Assembly (NCBI GenBank): GCA_024682115.1
Contig: JAIKZO010000058.1
Coordinates: 61,869 to 125,868, forward strand
Reading direction: 5' to 3'
Length of the DNA: 64,000 bases
Source: Lachnospiraceae bacterium
Lineage (GTDB): Bacteria > Bacillota > Clostridia > Lachnospirales > Lachnospiraceae
The notes beneath the pieces were generated by a model. That model made no database searches. It was not told where the DNA came from and saw nothing but the letters and a program-made list of their open reading frames with translations. The first letter of the stretch is position 1. The number at the start of each line of letters is the position of its first letter. Below, in pieces: positions 8,612 to 56,273 of the stretch. The position numbers and the translations under genes are program-made.

Positions 8612-11600
8612 ATGTATTTAAAATCGATCGAGATACACGGATTTAAATCATTCGCCAATAAAATAGTGTTTAAGTTCCACAACGGTATCACAGGTATAGT
8701 GGGCCCAAACGGATCCGGTAAATCCAATGTAGCCGATGCTGTCAGATGGGTTTTGGGTGAACAGAGGATCAAACAGCTCAGAGGAGCATCGATGCAGGAT
8801 GTCATCTTTTCCGGTACGGAACTTCGAAAGATGCAGGGCTATGCATATGTGGCGATCACTCTGGATAATTCGGATCATCAGTTACCTACAGATTTTGACG
8901 AGATTACAGTTGCGAGGAGGATATATCGTTCGGGAGAGAGCGAATACCTTCTTAACGGTGCACCCTGTCGTCTTAAAGATGTAAATGAGCTTTTTTACGA
9001 TACGGGTATCGGTAAGGAGGGATATTCCATTATCGGTCAGGGTCAGATCGACAAGATACTGTCCGGAAAACCCGAGGAAAGAAGAGAACTGTTTGATGAA
9101 GCAGCCGGAATAGTAAAGTTCAAGAAAAGAAAAGCTGCCGCTGTTAAAAAGCTTGAGGATGAACAGAACAACCTCGTACGTGTGAACGATATCCTTGCCG
9201 AGCTTGAGAAACAGGTCGGCCCTTTGGAAAAGCAATCGGAAAAAGCCAAAGTCTATCTCAAAAAGAAGGAAGAACTCAAGACTGTTGACGTCAACATGTT
9301 CCTTCTTGAGAACGAATCTCTTGAACAGTCTCTTGATAAGGCAAAAGAAAACCTAAGCATAGCGACCAAGGATCTTGATTCGGTAAAACTTCAGTATGAA
9401 TCCACCAAGGAAGAATATGATAAGATCCAGAAAGAGATTGAAGAATTAACACAGAATATCGATGATGAGAAGTCGTCTCTTTCCGAGACCAGTATCCTTC
9501 GCGGTAAACTCGAAGGCGAGATCAATGTGTTGAAAGAGCAGATAAAGTCTGCCCGTTCGAATGAAGAACACTTCCTCGGAAGAAAGAGCGCGATCGAAGA
9601 ACAGATAAAAGAGCGCAACGAAGAGAAGGAAGAGATATTAAAAGACAAGGGTGTCGTTGACGAAGAACTTCAGAAGATCGAAAAAAGCAGAGATGATGCC
9701 AAAGCCCTTCTGAATGAGGTTCAGAACAAAATAGAAGAGCTTAATGAGAATATCGAGAACGGCAAGAATACCATCATCGATACTCTTAATTCGCGTGCAA
9801 CGATAAAGTCCAAGCTTTCGAGACTGGATTCCATGACGGAATCGATAAATATCAGAAAATCCGAGCTGACTTCAAGGATCCTGAAAGTCAAATCCGACGA
9901 AGCACAGTTTTCCGAGACCATCAAAACTCTTGAAGAAGAGTTTTCGAAGATCTCAGACAGGATAGATGAGTTAAACAACGAACAGGAAAAGAAAGAAGAA
10001 GATCTTTCCATCGTCAGGGAAGAACTTTCCAAAAAAGATGAAGAGTTAAGAGATACTCAGGTAAAGTATCATCAGGATAAATCAAAACTCGATGCTCTTT
10101 CCAATATAACCGAAAGATATGAAGGTTACGGCGGATCGGTAAAAGCCGTTATGGAAAAGAAGGACGAGGAAAAAGGCATTATCGGAGTTGTGGCCGATAT
10201 CATCAAGGTGGATCAGAAATATGAAGTCGCCATCGAAACGGCTCTCGGAGGAAACATTCAAAATATCGTTACGGATGATGAAAATACCGCCAAGAAGATG
10301 ATCGCCTACCTGAAACAGCATAAAGCCGGAAGGGCAACTTTCCTGCCGCTCGATTCTCTGGATAACCCTCAGGAATTCAAGAATCCCGAAGCACTTAATG
10401 AAAAGGGTGCGATCGGAATGGCTGACGAACTTGTAAATACGGATAAGAAATACAGGAACGTCGCCAAAGCGATGCTGGGCCGTATCGTCGTTGTCGATAA
10501 TGTTGACAATGCTCTTAAGATCGCCAGAAAATTCGGTTACGGAATAAGAATGGTAACCCTTGAAGGCGAACTTCTGGTGCCCGGCGGAGCCATTTCGGGA
10601 GGTGCATTTAAGAACAGTTCCAACCTCCTCAGCCGTCGCAGGGAGATGGATGAGCTCGAAAAGAGAGTCAAAGAGTATGTTGTATTGATCGATAAGATTC
10701 TTCAGGATATCGAAGATACCAAGAAGAAGCGTAATAAGATAAGACTCGAGATAGAGGAAGTAAAATCCGAGATCCAGAAGAAATTCATTGAACAGAATAC
10801 GGCCAGATTAAACGTATTAAAAGCCGAAGAACGTAAAAACGAAGCATCCGAAGGCTCTTTGGAACTTAAGAATGAAGAAAAAGAGATCGAGATTCAGATC
10901 AAGGATATTGCGGAGAGTAAGGAAGAGATAAATTCCGAACTCGAAAAGAGCAATGAACTTGAAAAATCGGTAGAGAAACAGATAGAAGAATTCCAGGCCG
11001 AACTGGAAACAAAGCGTGAAGAGGAAACACTACATCTTTCAAAAGTTTCGGAATGGGAAGTCGAAGTCTCAAAGATACTTCAACAGACGGGATTCCATCA
11101 GCAGAACCTGGACAGGATAAATTCCGAGATAGAAAGACTTACCGATGAACTCAACGAAGTTGTTGAAGGGATCAAAACATCAACTTCAGATATCGAGCTC
11201 AAGGAAAACAGCATTAAAGAGATCGAGCAGACCATCAAGGCTTCATTTACGACGCAGTCCGATACCGAGCAGAAACTGACAGGGGATATCGAAAAGAAGG
11301 AAGAACTCACCCAGAAGCAGAAGACATTCTTTGAAGATCGAGAAAAGCTTTCCGAGAAAATGAACAGTCTTGATAAAGAAGTATACAGACTCGGTGACCA
11401 AAAGACCCGTTTCGAGGAGAGGATCAGCGCTCAGATAAGCTATATGTGGGAGGAATACGAGATCACCCTTACCGACGCAGCTTCATTAAAAGATCCCGAG
11501 ATGAATGACTTAAGCTCGATGAAGAGACGTGCCAATTCCCTTCGATCCGAGATCAAAGGACTTGGTGACGTCAATGTTAATGCCATTGAAGATTATAAGA

Positions 11601-12172
11601 ATCTCATGGAAAGATACACTTTCCTTAAAACACAACATGACGATCTTATAGAAGCCGCAAAAACTCTCGAAGGAATCATAACCGAGCTTGATACAGCCAT
11701 GAGAAAGCAGTTCTCCGAGAAGTTTGCAGATATCGGAAAAGAGTTTGATAAGGTGTTCAAGGAGCTTTTCGGCGGCGGAACCGGATCGTTGGAACTTATC
11801 GAGGATGAAGATATCCTTGAAGCAGGCATAAGGATAGTTGCTCAACCGCCCGGAAAGAAGCTGCAGAATATGATGCAGTTATCCGGAGGAGAAAAAGCGC
11901 TTACCGCTATCTCGCTTTTATTCGCGATACAGAATCTGAAACCTTCACCGTTCTGTTTGCTCGATGAGATAGAAGCGGCTCTTGATGAGAGCAATGTCAG
12001 CAGATTTGCGACTTACCTTCGTAAACTTACAAAGAATACGCAGTTCATTGTCATAACACACAGACGAGGGACTATGGAAAAAGCCGACAGGCTTTACGGT
12101 ATTACGATGCAGGAGAAAGGTGTGTCCGCTCTTGTTTCGGTTAATCTCATTGATGAGGAGCTTGACGACTGA
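8612..12172 (+). CDS. smc: Chromosome segregation protein SMC
   Basis: Walker A GPNGSGKSN, hinge (GYGGSVKAV...GGAISGGAF), signature LSGGEKALTA, Walker B CLLDEIEAALDESN. Confidence 0.97.
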   Translation: MYLKSIEIHGFKSFANKIVFKFHNGITGIVGPNGSGKSNVADAVRWVLGEQRIKQLRGASMQDVIFSGTELRKMQGYAYVAITLDNSDHQLPTDFDEITVARRIYRSGESEYLLNGAPCRLKDVNELFYDTGIGKEGYSIIGQGQIDKILSGKPEERRELFDEAAGIVKFKKRKAAAVKKLEDEQNNLVRVNDILAELEKQVGPLEKQSEKAKVYLKKKEELKTVDVNMFLLENESLEQSLDKAKENLSIATKDLDSVKLQYESTKEEYDKIQKEIEELTQNIDDEKSSLSETSILRGKLEGEINVLKEQIKSARSNEEHFLGRKSAIEEQIKERNEEKEEILKDKGVVDEELQKIEKSRDDAKALLNEVQNKIEELNENIENGKNTIIDTLNSRATIKSKLSRLDSMTESINIRKSELTSRILKVKSDEAQFSETIKTLEEEFSKISDRIDELNNEQEKKEEDLSIVREELSKKDEELRDTQVKYHQDKSKLDALSNITERYEGYGGSVKAVMEKKDEEKGIIGVVADIIKVDQKYEVAIETALGGNIQNIVTDDENTAKKMIAYLKQHKAGRATFLPLDSLDNPQEFKNPEALNEKGAIGMADELVNTDKKYRNVAKAMLGRIVVVDNVDNALKIARKFGYGIRMVTLEGELLVPGGAISGGAFKNSSNLLSRRREMDELEKRVKEYVVLIDKILQDIEDTKKKRNKIRLEIEEVKSEIQKKFIEQNTARLNVLKAEERKNEASEGSLELKNEEKEIEIQIKDIAESKEEINSELEKSNELEKSVEKQIEEFQAELETKREEETLHLSKVSEWEVEVSKILQQTGFHQQNLDRINSEIERLTDELNEVVEGIKTSTSDIELKENSIKEIEQTIKASFTTQSDTEQKLTGDIEKKEELTQKQKTFFEDREKLSEKMNSLDKEVYRLGDQKTRFEERISAQISYMWEEYEITLTDAASLKDPEMNDLSSMKRRANSLRSEIKGLGDVNVNAIEDYKNLMERYTFLKTQHDDLIEAAKTLEGIITELDTAMRKQFSEKFADIGKEFDKVFKELFGGGTGSLELIEDEDILEAGIRIVAQPPGKKLQNMMQLSGGEKALTAISLLFAIQNLKPSPFCLLDEIEAALDESNVSRFATYLRKLTKNTQFIVITHRRGTMEKADRLYGITMQEKGVSALVSVNLIDEELDD

Positions 12173-13029
12173 TGGCTGGATTTTTTTCAAAGATCTTCGG
12201 CGGATATAAACAGATCGATGAAGATTTTTACGATGAGATATTCGAAAAACTCGTTACGGGCGATGTGGGTGTCCGTACATCAAACGAGATCGTCGAAAGA
12301 TTAAGAGACCAGGTAAAGGAAAACCATATAAAAAGTCCCGAAGAATGCAGGGAATTCCTTAAAAACAATATCAAGGAACAGATGCGTCTTGATGAGGATG
12401 CTTTTGCTTTTGAGAAAGAAAGAAGCGTGATCTTTGTCATAGGGATCAACGGTGTCGGCAAGACGACCACCATCGGGAAACTTGCCGCGATGTATAAGAA
12501 CGAAGGAAAGAGAGTTCTTCTTTCCGCTGCCGATACATTCCGTGCCGCTGCGGCCGAACAGCTTGGAGAATGGGCCAACAGAGCCGGTGTTGAGATGGTT
12601 TCCGGTAAGGAAGGACAGGATCCGTCAAGTGTTCTTTTTGATACGATCCAATCTGCAAAGGCAAAGCAGGTTGATGTTCTGATCGTTGATACCGCCGGAC
12701 GTCTCCATAACAAAAAGAATCTCATGGATGAGCTTGAAAAGATGAACAGGCTCATCAATTCATATTATCCGCTCGTGCACCGTGAGAACCTTGTAGTATT
12801 GGACGGAACCACAGGGCAGAATGCCCTTAATCAGGCAAGGGAGTTCTCGGAGGTAACAAAGCTTACCGGATTTATTATGACCAAGATGGACGGAACCGCC
12901 AGGGGCGGCATAGCCGTAGCCATACAGTCGGAATTAAAGATACCCGTCAAATACATCGGGGTGGGAGAAAAGATCACCGATCTTAAAAGATTTAATGCCG
13001 ACGAATATGTTGACAGTCTTTTTGAATAA
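12172..13029 (+). CDS. ftsY: Signal recognition particle receptor FtsY
   Basis: GINGVGKTTTIGKLA, DTFRAAAAEQL, DTAGRLHNKKNLMDEL, TKMDGTARGG; start ATG overlaps the smc stop (TGATG). Confidence 0.95.
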   Translation: MAGFFSKIFGGYKQIDEDFYDEIFEKLVTGDVGVRTSNEIVERLRDQVKENHIKSPEECREFLKNNIKEQMRLDEDAFAFEKERSVIFVIGINGVGKTTTIGKLAAMYKNEGKRVLLSAADTFRAAAAEQLGEWANRAGVEMVSGKEGQDPSSVLFDTIQSAKAKQVDVLIVDTAGRLHNKKNLMDELEKMNRLINSYYPLVHRENLVVLDGTTGQNALNQAREFSEVTKLTGFIMTKMDGTARGGIAVAIQSELKIPVKYIGVGEKITDLKRFNADEYVDSLFE

Positions 13030-13041
13030 TGAGGAATGTTT

Positions 13042-50694: not shown

Positions 50695-52602
50695 ATGAAG
50701 AAAAAAGTTGCGGTTTTCGCGGCCGGATGGGGCACCGAAATTTTAGATCAACTTATGAAAGGTATTTATCGGGGCTTTGCTGATGCAAGTGCCGATATTT
50801 ACCTGTTTTTGAGTTTCCCTTTACTTACCGATGAGCTTTCATCCATCAAAGGTGAGGTCAACATTTTTTCTCTTCCGCATCTTGAAGATTTTGACGGTGC
50901 GATCATTTTCGGAAATTCAATCGATTTCGGTGATACATTCCAGGAGATCAACAGATCCTGTAAAGAAGCCGGCATTCCGACTGTGAGTCTGGGCCGCAAG
51001 CCCGAATACGGTCATCATCTTACGCCTGATAACAAAGCCGGAATGGAGCTTTTGTGTGATCATTTAAAGTCCAAACATAATGTCGGCAGGGTCTATTATG
51101 TTGCCGGTTCGGCTAATAATCCCGATTCAAACGTAAGACTTGAAGTTATCAGGGATGCTTTTCAAAATCTTACCGAATCAGATATATTTTATACGAATTG
51201 GGATCTGGGGGCTGCTTCGGATTCGGTCACGCAGTATCTTAAATCCGGAAGGGAACTTCCGGATGCCTTTATGTGTGCCAATGACGGTATTGCCATATTT
51301 GTAGCCGAGACATTTTTAAATAACGGTATCAAAGTGCCTGAGGACATAGTCGTTACCGGATTTGACGATACTTACAGCTCATCCGTTTTTGACCCGACGC
51401 TTACTTCGGTAAGCCAGGATTTCACAAATGCCGGATATAAAGCATCCAGAATGATCCTGGATCTTTGTGACGGGAAAGAAGTTGCGAAAGAAACTTTGTC
51501 CGATTGCATCCTCAGGGTCAGGGAATCATGTGGCTGTACCGAATACAGCAGCGAGGCCGATGCTGCAAGAAGAGATATAGGTCATAAGATATTTATTGAA
51601 AGGCTTATCGCAAATAATTTTGATTCCAAACTGAATTACCTTGATGCAAAACTTCTTTCCGGAATGGAATTTATAGACATTTATTCTTCACTTTCAGAAT
51701 TCTACGGACAGAATTCCGGATTTGAAAAAGGAAACATGCACATCCTTCTGGAACAGGATTATGAGAATTCCGTTTATGACGAGAGTATAGAACTTCGTGA
51801 TTCGGGATATTCGGATCATATGTTTGATATCTTTTCGATGAATGACGGTAAGATATCTTTTGATCCTAATTTTGAGACGAGAAAACTCGTTCCGCATATC
51901 GAAGATTCTTCGCAGGAAAACCATGTATACATTTTCTGTCCCCTTCATGATGGTGAGAGGGCAATGGGTTATTACGTCTTCCGCGATATCATTGATGAGA
52001 TCGATAAGAACAACAATCTTGTAAGATATGAACAGAGACTCAATTCGATATTTATTAAATACCGGAAAAATCTTCTTGCAAATTACCTGAACAACAAGTT
52101 AAAGATAATAAATGAGACCGATCCGATGACCGGTGTAAAGAACAGGACCGCTTACGATGCTGCCGTATCAAAAGAGAACAGCAACATTTTCAATAAAACA
52201 GCGGAAGATTTTGCGCTTGTCATCTTTGATATCAATAATCTAAAGAGCATTAACGATGAATTCGGACATGAATACGGAGACGAATACATTATAGGATCAT
52301 GTAAACTTCTCTGTCATGTATTCAAGCACAGCCCGGTATTCAGGATCGGCGGAGATGAATTTGTTTCGATCCTCAAAGGAGAGGATTTTGAAGAAAAGAA
52401 CTCTCTTCTCATCGAACTTAATGATCTGATTAATGAGATGAGTAAAAAAGATCTGCCGGCATGGCAGAAAGTATCCGTTGCATTCGGATTGTCATGCTTC
52501 GATCCGGAAAACGATACTTCGATATCCGATGTTTTCAAACGGGCTGATACGATAATGTACGAAAATAAAAAGGAATTCAAGGGAAAGGCTGACATTCGTT
52601 AG
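50695..52602 (+). CDS. Diguanylate cyclase with cytoplasmic LacI-type (PBP1-like) ligand-binding domain
   Basis: N-term PBP1-like fold (FDGAIIFGNSIDFGD...DNKAGMELLCDHL...FMCANDGIAIFVAETFLNNGIKVPEDIVVTGFDDTYSSSVFDPTLTSV), no HTH, no signal peptide/TM; C-term DPMTGVKNRTAYD...FRIGGDEFVSIL. Confidence 0.9.
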   Translation: MKKKVAVFAAGWGTEILDQLMKGIYRGFADASADIYLFLSFPLLTDELSSIKGEVNIFSLPHLEDFDGAIIFGNSIDFGDTFQEINRSCKEAGIPTVSLGRKPEYGHHLTPDNKAGMELLCDHLKSKHNVGRVYYVAGSANNPDSNVRLEVIRDAFQNLTESDIFYTNWDLGAASDSVTQYLKSGRELPDAFMCANDGIAIFVAETFLNNGIKVPEDIVVTGFDDTYSSSVFDPTLTSVSQDFTNAGYKASRMILDLCDGKEVAKETLSDCILRVRESCGCTEYSSEADAARRDIGHKIFIERLIANNFDSKLNYLDAKLLSGMEFIDIYSSLSEFYGQNSGFEKGNMHILLEQDYENSVYDESIELRDSGYSDHMFDIFSMNDGKISFDPNFETRKLVPHIEDSSQENHVYIFCPLHDGERAMGYYVFRDIIDEIDKNNNLVRYEQRLNSIFIKYRKNLLANYLNNKLKIINETDPMTGVKNRTAYDAAVSKENSNIFNKTAEDFALVIFDINNLKSINDEFGHEYGDEYIIGSCKLLCHVFKHSPVFRIGGDEFVSILKGEDFEEKNSLLIELNDLINEMSKKDLPAWQKVSVAFGLSCFDPENDTSISDVFKRADTIMYENKKEFKGKADIR

Positions 52603-52613
52603 CCTTTACTTTT
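52584..52613. terminator. Short hairpin at the convergent 3' ends of the GGDEF gene and the minus-strand small gene
   Basis: AAAGGCT-GACATTCGTT-AGCCTTT followed by ACTTTTT; the GGDEF stop codon is inside the structure. Confidence 0.45.
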
Positions 52614-52883
52614 TCAGAAGGGTAAAGAACCCAGATCCGTTACGCCGGCCTGTTCCATGGTGTCTTTAAAATCCTTTTCCATCTTGACCTTCTGTGCTGA
52701 AGCGAGATCCATGTATTTTATAAATACATCTTCAACACTGAGACCGCTTTTTGAAGCGATCTCTTCCATTTTGGGCTTCAGTTTTTCAAGCTGAGTGGAA
52801 ACGGGCGTTTTCTGGGGATCAATGTCTCCGAGAACGGTTTCGGCATATTTATTTATCTCGTTTAAGATTTCCTGATCTGTCAT
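52614..52883 (-). CDS. Small acidic protein of unknown function (89 aa)
   Basis: Only substantial ORF in this interval; MTDQEILNEINKYAETVLGDIDPQKTPVSTQLEKLKPKMEEIASKSGLSVEDVFIKYMDLASAQKVKMEKDF...; not opposite another gene. Confidence 0.65.
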   Translation of the reverse strand: MTDQEILNEINKYAETVLGDIDPQKTPVSTQLEKLKPKMEEIASKSGLSVEDVFIKYMDLASAQKVKMEKDFKDTMEQAGVTDLGSLPF

Positions 52884-52975: not shown

Positions 52976-55402
52976 ATGAAAAAGAAACTATATAAGTTTA
53001 TGAACTGGCCGGTCATTGAGGCTATAACATACCGCGAGGAGTCTCATCCTTTTGAGACTCTCGGAACAAAATCCGTGGCCGGTGGGACCCTTTTTCAGAC
53101 TTATTATCCGGATGCGGTTAAGATTAAGCTTATCCTGGATGAAAAGGAACACAGAAGCTTTGATATGGAAATGGCTGACGAAATGGGATTTTTCGCTCAG
53201 ATCGTTCCCGGTAAGATCACCTGTGATTACGAATATGAAGTTACCGCAAAAGACGGCGGAACCTTCAAATATAGAGATCCTTACAGATATGATGATTTCT
53301 TTATTTCGGAGAAAGACAGCGCGTCCTTCAGCAACGGTACGGATTACCGTTCCTATGAACTGCTCGGGGCTTTCAGCTGCAAGGTAAACGGCGTTAAGGG
53401 TGTTCGTTTTGCGCTTTGGGCTCCCTGTGCCCTTTCGGTATGTGTCCTCGGAGATTTCAATGACTTCACCTCCGGAATGTATCCCATGCAGCTTAATGAC
53501 AGGACCGGGATATACGAGATTTTTATTCCGGGTATCGGATATGGCAACACATATTATTATGAGATAAAGACAAAGAACGGGACTAATATAATCAAACCCG
53601 ACCCGTATTCCAAAAAGATCGTTGCATCGGATGAGAGGATCTGTTCCGTCATATACGATGACAAATTCGCTTTCTCCGACGATGGATTTATCTCCGGGCG
53701 TGAAACGAAGACGGATTCGGGCCTGTCCGTTTGCGAGATAGATCTTTCATCTTTTGCAGTTGAAGATCCGATCACGGATGTAAAAAATGTATCCGATAAG
53801 ATCGTTAAGCATGTAAAGGATTTCGGATACGACCATGTTAAATTTCTTTCTTTTGCCGAAACACTTACGGACACGCCATCATCCGACAGCACTGCGTTCT
53901 TTTTTGCGCCTTCATCCAAACTTGTCGATGCAGACGGATTAAAGGAGATCGTAAATACTCTCCATCAGAATGATATCGGAGTGCTCTTTGATTTTAACTG
54001 TTCGTGCTTTTCGTCCGATAACGATTCCCTGAAATGCTTTGACGGCACCTGCCTTTACGAGCATCTCGATCAGAGACAGGCTTCTCATCCGGGAAACAAT
54101 GCTCTTAATTTCAATTATAAAAGGCCTGAAGTTACGGATTTTCTTATTTCTTCAGCCATGTATTATCTTGATCGTTTTCATTTTGACGGTCTTTGTGTTA
54201 ACGACCTTTCTTCGATGCTTTATCTTGATTACGGCAAAAGAGAAGGGGAGTGGCTTCCTAACAGTTACGGCGGAAGTGAGAACACGGACGGGATCGAGTT
54301 TATCAGGCATTTTAATTCCGTATTAAAGAAAAAATATAAAAACGTCATCTTAATGGCCGGAGAAAAGGCAGCATATAAAGGTGTCACATCTCCGATCGAA
54401 GAGGACGGTCTCGGATTTGATCTTAAGTTCAATAACGGTTTTTCCGACGATTATCTTGATTATATCTCGTTCGATCCTTATTTCAGGTCGCACCATCATA
54501 ATGAGCTGACGTTCAGCATGGTATATCAGTATTCCGAAAATTTCATCTGCGGTTTTCCCAGTGACTATTCGAATACGGAATGCGGGCCGCTGATCGACAA
54601 TATGCCGGGAGAGGATCCTGAAAGGATCGCTAACTTAAGGCTTTCATATGCTTATCTGTTTATGCACCCCGGGAAAAAGATGCTTTTTATGGGCCCCGAT
54701 TTCGGTGCCGATAATGTAAGCGGTACATCATGTCACATAGACTTCGGACTGCTCAGGAAAAACGCAAATAAAGGATTAAGGTCTCTTATAAGAGAACTGA
54801 ATAAGCTTTATAAACAGAACAGGGCTCTTTATGAGCTCGATGATGTTTCCGACGGCTTCGAGTGGATAAACTGCCTGAATTCAAATGACTGCACTTTGAG
54901 TTTCTTAAGAAAGGGCAGGAATGAAAAGGATGTTTTGCTCATTGCATGTAATTTTGCGGGGATAATAAGACAGATGACTGTCGGAACGCCTTTTGCCGGA
55001 AAGTATAAAGAGATACTCAACACCGATGACAAGGATTTCGGCGGGAGCAACATCATCAATACCAGGACTAAAGTCGTTTCGGAAAAAGAAGCCGACGGAA
55101 GGGATTATTCGATAGAAGTCAAGCTTGCACCGCTGTCGCTGGCCGTATTTAAGTATGTTCCGTTTACCGAGCAGGAAAAGTATAAGATCGAAAAGAGAAA
55201 GGAAGCTATCATAGCCGATTCCAGAGCTAAGGAGTTTAAGGAGGAAGCAATGATAGCCAAACTTGAATATGATGAGGCCAAAGCAGCCATGGAAGAAGCC
55301 AGGGATCGCATGAACGAGGCCGATGCCAGGGTCAAAAAAGCCCTTGAAAATGAAAAGAAAGAACTTTCCAAGGCGAAAAAAGCTTTGGAAGAAGCAAAGT
55401 AA
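52976..55402 (+). CDS. GlgB-family GH13 protein with substituted catalytic residues and C-terminal coiled-coil extension
   Basis: CBM48-like N-terminus (FALWAPCALSVCVLGDFNDF), GlgB-like HFDGLCVNDLSSMLYLDYGKREGEWLPNSYGGSENTDGIEF, YFRSHHHNELTFSMVYQYSENFI, HPGKKMLFMGPDFG; tail rich in Glu/Lys/Ala. Confidence 0.88.
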   Translation: MKKKLYKFMNWPVIEAITYREESHPFETLGTKSVAGGTLFQTYYPDAVKIKLILDEKEHRSFDMEMADEMGFFAQIVPGKITCDYEYEVTAKDGGTFKYRDPYRYDDFFISEKDSASFSNGTDYRSYELLGAFSCKVNGVKGVRFALWAPCALSVCVLGDFNDFTSGMYPMQLNDRTGIYEIFIPGIGYGNTYYYEIKTKNGTNIIKPDPYSKKIVASDERICSVIYDDKFAFSDDGFISGRETKTDSGLSVCEIDLSSFAVEDPITDVKNVSDKIVKHVKDFGYDHVKFLSFAETLTDTPSSDSTAFFFAPSSKLVDADGLKEIVNTLHQNDIGVLFDFNCSCFSSDNDSLKCFDGTCLYEHLDQRQASHPGNNALNFNYKRPEVTDFLISSAMYYLDRFHFDGLCVNDLSSMLYLDYGKREGEWLPNSYGGSENTDGIEFIRHFNSVLKKKYKNVILMAGEKAAYKGVTSPIEEDGLGFDLKFNNGFSDDYLDYISFDPYFRSHHHNELTFSMVYQYSENFICGFPSDYSNTECGPLIDNMPGEDPERIANLRLSYAYLFMHPGKKMLFMGPDFGADNVSGTSCHIDFGLLRKNANKGLRSLIRELNKLYKQNRALYELDDVSDGFEWINCLNSNDCTLSFLRKGRNEKDVLLIACNFAGIIRQMTVGTPFAGKYKEILNTDDKDFGGSNIINTRTKVVSEKEADGRDYSIEVKLAPLSLAVFKYVPFTEQEKYKIEKRKEAIIADSRAKEFKEEAMIAKLEYDEAKAAMEEARDRMNEADARVKKALENEKKELSKAKKALEEAK

Positions 55403-55444: not shown

Positions 55445-55516
55445 GCTTCCGTAGCGCAGTGGTAGCGCAATTGATTCGTAATCAATAGGTCATGGGTTCA
55501 AGTCCCATCGGGAGCT
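55445..55516 (+). tRNA. tRNA-Thr (anticodon CGT)
   Basis: Full cloverleaf: GCTTCCG/CGGGAGC acceptor, GCGC/GCGC D stem, ATTGA-TTCGTAA-TCAAT anticodon arm, ATGGG-TTCAAGT-CCCAT T arm; CCA not encoded. Confidence 0.96.
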
Positions 55517-55517
55517 G

Positions 55518-55550
55518 TCCCGCATCGAAACAAAAATGCGGGATTTTTTT
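55518..55550 (+). terminator. Rho-independent terminator after tRNA-Thr
   Basis: TCCCGCAT-CGAAACAAAA-ATGCGGGA-TTTTTTT. Confidence 0.92.
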
Positions 55551-55580
55551 ATTCAGTTATTCAGTCAGGGGGCGAGAAAC

Positions 55581-56273
55581 ATGAAAAAAAACATAGCTGA
55601 ATTTATCGGTACAATGACTCTGGTCATCATGGGATGCGGAACTGCAATGCTCGTCGGATGTGATTCGATGTCCGGATGCGGTTATATTTTGACTGCTCTT
55701 GCATTTGGCCTTTCGATCGTATGCATGGCTTATTCCATCGGAAATGTTTCGGGTTGTCATATTAATCCGGCAGTTTCTTTTGCAATGTGGCTTAAAGGAG
55801 ATCTTTCCGGGAAGGAATTCCTGTCTTATGTAATTTCCCAGGTGCTGGGTGCTTTGGCAGGTTCTTTGCTGCTCGCGGTTATTTTCCGTGCAGGATCGGT
55901 TAATGACATGACCGGCGGGATGGGAACAAACGGACTTGTAGGTGTTAACGGCAGCATAGTTGCGGGACTTCTTGTAGAGATCGTTCTTACATTTTTCTTT
56001 ATCATTACCATACTCGGAGTTACCGATGAAAGATTCAAGCACGGATCATTTGCCGGACTTATAATCGCTTTGGCGCTGGTAGGCGTACACATCATCGGCA
56101 TAGGGCTTACGGGAACCAGCGTAAATCCCGCAAGATCTTTGGGACCCGCTATCGTAAATGCTGTTTTTAACAAAGATACGACCGCTTTGGTGAATGTCTG
56201 GATATTCATAATAGGGCCTTTGGCGGGCTCGGGTCTGGCTGTTTCACTCTACCGTATCATATCCGGTGAATGA
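55581..56273 (+). CDS. MIP-family aquaporin/glycerol facilitator
   Basis: NPA motifs HINPAVSFAMWL and SVNPARSLGPA; six TM. ORF-track start 55536 falls in the tRNA terminator, so ATG 55581 (SD AGGGGG) used. Confidence 0.94.
   Translation: MKKNIAEFIGTMTLVIMGCGTAMLVGCDSMSGCGYILTALAFGLSIVCMAYSIGNVSGCHINPAVSFAMWLKGDLSGKEFLSYVISQVLGALAGSLLLAVIFRAGSVNDMTGGMGTNGLVGVNGSIVAGLLVEIVLTFFFIITILGVTDERFKHGSFAGLIIALALVGVHIIGIGLTGTSVNPARSLGPAIVNAVFNKDTTALVNVWIFIIGPLAGSGLAVSLYRIISGE

Follow-up and report, generated by a model that had tools for sequence, protein, structure and literature searches.

A maintained GlgB paralog with a degenerate active site, and recurrent loss of catalytic residues among its relatives in Lachnospiraceae

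We describe a second branching-enzyme paralog of Lachnospiraceae, GlgB2, whose copy in the window analysed here (64,000 nucleotides of contig JAIKZO010000058.1 from a Lachnospiraceae bacterium) almost certainly has a dead active site and is maintained as a pseudoenzyme. The same loss has occurred several separate times in this paralog, with the fold and the tail kept, which suggests that the protein has a non-catalytic job. The best explanation as a whole, and one to which we give about even credence, is that GlgB2 is a selected non-catalytic partner or scaffold in glycogen metabolism.

The glgB2 frame opens with an ATG preceded by GGAG and is unbroken over all 808 codons, as the preliminary description of this DNA had claimed (Table 1). 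The likeness to bacterial branching enzymes seen there by eye was also borne out, since significant matches over the CBM48, the barrel and the C domain place the window GlgB2 in the GlgB / GH13_9 sequence family; besides the Pfam and NCBIfam matches, comparison with solved GlgB gave E values of about 1e-133 with phmmer and about 1e-77 with Foldseek. For the barrel the Pfam search returned no match to the alpha-amylase catalytic domain. An AlphaFold model of the window GlgB2 (input of 43 window and locus sequences) reached a mean pLDDT of 89 and a pTM of 0.85, and its best solved structural matches are branching enzymes, with TM scores up to 0.92 (by target length, full-length enzymes).

Table 1. 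Positions of glgB2, its domains and active-site codons, and neighbouring features in the window
Feature	Positions	Strand	Basis
LacI-type periplasmic-binding-protein-like sensor domain fused to GGDEF	50695-52602	+	
Terminator-like hairpin, end of upstream gene	52584-52607	+	
Conserved 89-aa ORF, divergent, beside glgB2	52614-52883	-	
glgB2, 808-aa GlgB-family protein with degenerate catalytic site	52976-55402	+	Frame reading, alignment
GlgB_N domain, residues 13-103	53012-53284	+	Pfam PF22019
CBM48, residues 134-212	53375-53611	+	Pfam PF02922
Phe164 replacing Trp of the GDFNxW motif in CBM48	53465-53467	+	Motif alignment
GH13 barrel, about residues 250-625, degraded regions I-IV	53723-54850	+	Alignment and model
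Region I His to Cys344, TGC	54005-54007	+	Codon read, alignment
Region II Arg to Cys407, TGT	54194-54196	+	Codon read, alignment
Region II nucleophile Asp to Asn409, AAC	54200-54202	+	Codon read, alignment
Region III acid/base Glu to Gly462, GGA	54359-54361	+	Codon read, alignment
Region IV His to Ser529, AGT	54560-54562	+	Codon read, alignment
Region IV Asp530 retained, GAC	54563-54565	+	Codon read, alignment
C-terminal all-beta domain (Alpha-amylase_C), residues 630-727	54863-55156	+	Pfam PF02806
Helical heptad-patterned tail, residues 732-807	55169-55396	+	AlphaFold, heptad test
tRNA	55445-55516		Rfam
Aquaporin-family (MIP) gene	55536-56273	+	

All four GH13 motif regions align without gaps to solved branching enzymes, and this alignment confirms the altered catalytic motifs reported earlier, each codon for which a position had been given lying exactly there. 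When set against the Cyanothece branching enzyme, DWVPGHF becomes DFNCSCF, DGIRVDAV becomes DGLCVNDL, AEES becomes AGEK and LSHDE becomes FPSDY, and relative to E. coli D405/E458/D526 the GlgB2 numbering is offset by a constant 4. The resulting triad is Asn409/Gly462/Asp530 as compared with Asp/Glu/Asp in active GH13 enzymes, the residues being assigned by sequence alignment and not by atom-level superposition; of the nucleophile Asp, acid/base Glu and transition-state Asp that a functional GlgB of GH13_9 carries in regions II to IV, only the last is present. Because the GH13 double-displacement mechanism requires a nucleophile and an acid/base, the window GlgB2 cannot work as a normal GH13 branching enzyme, and judged from its sequence it is near certain that the active site is dead. 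An assembly or sequencing error was rejected as the cause, comparable losses being found in other species of the genus and in many other genera.

Two GlgB proteins are encoded in each of the six genomes of the genus, where GlgB1 (L002, L008-L012) has every catalytic motif intact and GlgB2 (L001, L003-L007) carries the triads NGD, NQN, NES, DNE, DNE and DDH in place of DED. The idea that homologs might share the full set of substitutions failed, as these differ even among species of the genus. On the other hand, the suggestion that the genome be checked for an intact glgB was answered by L002, which the same genome encodes at a site unlinked to glgB2. That genome and the other five also contain glgA and glgC, the latter with another member of its family, presumably glgD, beside it.

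The wider sample covered 75 genera of this one family with one genome each, many of these being metagenome assemblies, and revealed GlgB2 in 47 genera, a count that depends on assignment by tree and alignment. The triad is intact in 28 of these (one partly masked), 18 have lost at least one residue and 1 (L078) retains the triad within decayed motifs. Outside the genus of the window GlgB2 is both widespread and more often catalytically intact. Every degenerate sampled genome has another branching-enzyme-like protein, although the proposal that loss is confined to genomes with a second enzyme was suggestive and not significant (Fisher p 0.14). In G053 (L123, L124) the sole change is nucleophile Asp to Asn and the other motifs are perfect, as if loss had been caught at an early stage; its glgB2 is divided across contig ends with the substitution present in both pieces, and in G366, of the same genus, the gene has decayed further. 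That G053 might lack a second enzyme was dismissed, since its protein L150, though diverged, is branching-enzyme-like and has all three triad residues. For eleven genera the GlgB2 of another species was read as well. In ten of these the first species was degenerate, and in 9 of those ten the second species had also lost triad residues, mostly by substitutions of its own, with the tenth (G384) retaining DED in decayed motifs.

In phylogenetic trees the window protein falls within a GlgB2 clade separate from GlgB1. The main tree of 39 rows, from which motif columns and tail were excluded, requires 7 state changes (bootstrap range 7-8), of which at least 4 are forced by well-supported branches. 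Placing all degenerate rows in one clade was rejected by the AU test (p-AU 1.3e-7), and with it a single ancient loss, but the losses in the window genus and in G092/G390 may represent one event (p 0.555). These change counts are independent of the root and cannot by themselves separate loss from regain, but regain of a complete GH13 active site is taken to be implausible. A larger, quickly built tree contains long branches and serves as supporting evidence only. No report of a dead bacterial GlgB was found in the open-access literature searched, and the wider picture of repeated GlgB2 catalytic loss in Lachnospiraceae appears to be new.

The serC-serA and argH-asd genes flank glgB2 in the window genome and in G001-G004, with G005 partly rearranged. 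The same order of serC-serA, glgB2 and argH-asd occurs in G268. There the GlgB2 triad is intact, and the window copy therefore decayed in place. The neighbouring 89-aa ORF has no Pfam match, and its relatives (47-55% identity to the L103 copy) adjoin glgB2 in each of the six genomes of the genus and elsewhere are found near the serA/DUF1015 locus. That glgB2 has a promoter of its own, another early claim, is suggested by the gene layout, but a search of the + strand from the upstream hairpin to the start codon detected nothing resembling a sigma-70 site. In many other genera an MscS mechanosensitive-channel gene adjoins glgB2, at 63 of 91 loci examined, and DUF1015 lies on the other side at 39 of 91, a set that includes some non-GlgB2 or incomplete loci; the window locus has no mscS neighbour. 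No glycogen gene is adjacent to glgB2 in the window genome. A direct link with glucan metabolism is provided by G077, in which a degenerate glgB2 (L101, 9007-11376) overlaps a 4-alpha-glucanotransferase (GH77) gene (11373-13040) by four bases, and a GH77 gene also adjoins glgB2 in G380 of the same genus.

Other features of this locus were observed in passing. The sensor-GGDEF gene lies between serA and glgB2, and is present at that spot also in G003 and G004 and absent there in G001, G002 and G005. Downstream of glgB2 are a tRNA, the sole Rfam match, and then the aquaporin-family gene, for which no counterpart is listed at that place in the other five genomes of the genus.

The C-terminal tail described earlier proved to be real, in that AlphaFold models it as a single continuous helix of 76 residues, with confidence declining along its length, and its heptad pattern exceeds that of shuffled sequences (p 0.004 in the window protein, and p 0.002-0.01 across all six genus members). 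Helix and heptads fit a coiled coil, although a single-chain model cannot display helix pairing. If residue 730 is taken as its start, the tail measures 79-81 residues in each of the six species. The accompanying statement that such a tail is not expected on a GlgB holds in comparison with E. coli only, as tails are common on lachnospiraceal GlgB2, catalytically intact ones included. The tail is an old trait of the paralog and did not arrive with catalytic loss. In other genera it may be coiled-coil-like, disordered and rich in Lys/Ala/Thr/Pro, or almost absent, and such wide variation makes one common partner unlikely. As a separate observation, the GlgB1 proteins of the genus (L002, L008-L012) bear an N-terminal extension of ~50 residues, rich in Lys/Ala/Thr/Pro, whose composition resembles that of the disordered GlgB2 C-tails of other genera.

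The preliminary description had also pictured GlgB2 as binding glucan. From the motif only, we take the Trp of GDFNxW to be the counterpart of the Trp with which AMPK-beta and PTST bind glucan. In PTST these tryptophans are required for starch binding (PMC4339375). Of the six species of the genus, five have Phe or Tyr in place of the GDFNxW Trp, and in the genus the adjacent Asp and Arg are mostly lost as well, making glucan binding by way of the CBM48 doubtful here. The Trp is retained in 20 of the 21 other degenerate rows.

Substitution rates were compared in a trio of close genus members (L001, L003 and L004). Here GlgB2 has a dN of 0.24-0.31 with dS saturated or near-saturated, versus a dN of 0.07-0.08 for GlgB1 in the same genomes; within GlgB2 the C domain (0.14-0.22) and the tail (0.14-0.17) are slowest and the CBM48 is the fastest domain (0.34-0.37). 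Neutral simulation at 0.5 substitutions per site produced about 22 stops on average, and none is observed. By median identity the best-conserved parts of intact pairs are the barrel (0.79) and CBM48 (0.77), ahead of the C domain (0.64) and the N domain (0.58), and between degenerate pairs the corresponding values are 0.55, 0.58, 0.63 and 0.55. Barrel-minus-C-domain identity splits the degenerate pairs from the intact ones (9 and 14 pairs, non-overlapping; p 1.5e-4). Intact GlgB2 proteins have 229 invariant positions, and the fraction of these kept in degenerate copies is 0.97 in the N domain, 0.90 in the C domain, 0.86 in CBM48 and 0.62 in the barrel, and the most-lost positions include W302, Q305, H344, W374, D409, N491, D530 and H534, in or around the catalytic motifs. 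Constraint on the barrel is relaxed, and the N domain, the C domain and, within the genus, the tail are conserved. A decaying pseudogene is disfavoured by the open frames and by this constraint, and the earlier view of a maintained pseudoenzyme stands.

Slow decay, in which a redundant GlgB2 drifts under weak selection with no function of its own, is a different matter; GlgB2 does evolve faster than GlgB1, its barrel is relaxed, and the copy in G031 may have a barrel deletion. However, the frames are open despite saturated synonymous divergence, tail length is held in six of six species, no part evolves more slowly than the C domain and the tail, and the N domain, C domain and CBM48 keep their positions; we regard this explanation as improbable. 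More improbable still is a new enzyme in which the barrel has been rebuilt as a different active site, for although the model shows a folded barrel and some constraint is left, that constraint has dropped and the cleft residues vary among species of the genus and between genera, with no common new catalytic set visible. We find it hardly credible that the protein is a residual or altered branching enzyme with weak activity from a remodelled site: the window protein retains Asp530 and, in region II, the D404-G405 frame, but it has neither the nucleophile nor the acid/base that the mechanism needs, and its His and Arg have gone too.

The main rival, itself a special case of the partner idea, is that dead GlgB2 would serve as a regulatory or structural subunit of GlgB1 in a mixed complex that tunes chain-length choice. 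Such a subunit would have a direct precedent in ISA1/ISA2 of the same superfamily (PMC12510319), and the dead and active copies do occur together in six of six genus genomes, as does some other branching-enzyme-like protein in every degenerate genome sampled. Against this, the two genes are unlinked, their co-occurrence is statistically unremarkable by the Fisher test given above, and the N-tail of GlgB1 is basic and disordered and offers no matching coiled coil. By analogy to the plant proteins we consider a GlgB1 subunit conceivable, though rather unlikely.

Returning to the partner or scaffold explanation, GlgB2 is a second branching-enzyme paralog of Lachnospiraceae in which the N domain, CBM48, GH13 barrel and C domain are often followed by a tail of low complexity or coiled-coil type, and we propose that beyond branching it probably has a non-catalytic role resting on the N and C domains and the tail. 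Most likely this role would be to hold or recruit glycogen enzymes into a complex, and in lineages with another branching enzyme catalysis has been repeatedly lost and the remainder kept. The window GlgB2, a folded pseudoenzyme by its model, would represent a late stage, probably oligomerising or binding partners via its helical tail and touching alpha-glucan, if at all, by residual surface sites. The scaffold hypothesis is plausible; its elements, namely a scaffolding or partner function, assembly through the tail and contact with glucan, are inferred. Although speculative, and something we lean against, GlgB2 might mainly organise glycogen metabolism, its tail and end domains assembling the enzymes or the particle, with catalysis optional and repeatedly lost; such an organiser would by analogy be a bacterial counterpart of ISA2 and PTST in one chain.

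These proteins form a natural series that runs from intact GlgB2, through the single nucleophile change of G053, to wholly remodelled clefts, with another branching enzyme kept, so that what a branching enzyme does apart from catalysis can be put to a direct test. They also have a bearing on annotation. The dead window GlgB2 scores 552 bits with TIGR01515 'branching enzyme' (curated cut-off of 464) and L041, likewise dead and likewise called branching enzyme, scores 802 against a curated cut-off of 741, and because such proteins exceed the cut-offs and receive that name, glgB counts in gut genomes overstate branching capacity.

Bacterial GlgB (PDB IDs 3k1d, 9u77, 5gqu and 1m7x) has the same domain order and predicted fold as GlgB2 at about 30-33% identity, whereas the window GlgB2 has the Asn/Gly/Asp triad, has lost the His and Arg and has added a helical C-tail. 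GlgD is a non-catalytic partner of GlgC in Firmicutes, and the degenerate GlgB2 resembles it in being a glycogen-enzyme paralog that has no catalytic function and coexists with an active sister protein. In contrast to glgC with its adjacent second glgC-family gene, glgB2 is unlinked to glgB1, and most of its relatives are still catalytically intact. A regulatory subunit of GlgC is mentioned in the literature (PMC10395257).

In plants, ISA2 is a non-catalytic GH13 paralog whose varied catalytic residues include the nucleophile and which is kept with an active paralog, and why such non-catalytic alpha-glucan paralogs are selected is stated as not being understood (PMC12510319). The window GlgB2 is similarly a dead GH13 paralog maintained by selection alongside an active one. 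However, ISA2 is of the debranching type, its loss was already present in the common ancestor of green plants and its complex with the active paralog has been demonstrated, whereas GlgB2 is a bacterial branching-enzyme paralog with several separate losses, whose complex with GlgB1 is hypothetical. PTST combines a non-catalytic CBM48 with a coiled coil, and a partner enzyme is thereby delivered to alpha-glucan (PMC4339375, PMC6243121). That combination, as in PTST1 / FLO6, may recur in the window GlgB2 with its putative coiled coil, but PTST has no GH13 barrel, and the window GlgB2, in a comparison made by motif, has Phe where the CBM48 of PTST has a tryptophan needed for starch binding. Between them, ISA2 and PTST indicate that both halves of the partner or scaffold idea exist in nature (PMC12510319, PMC4339375).
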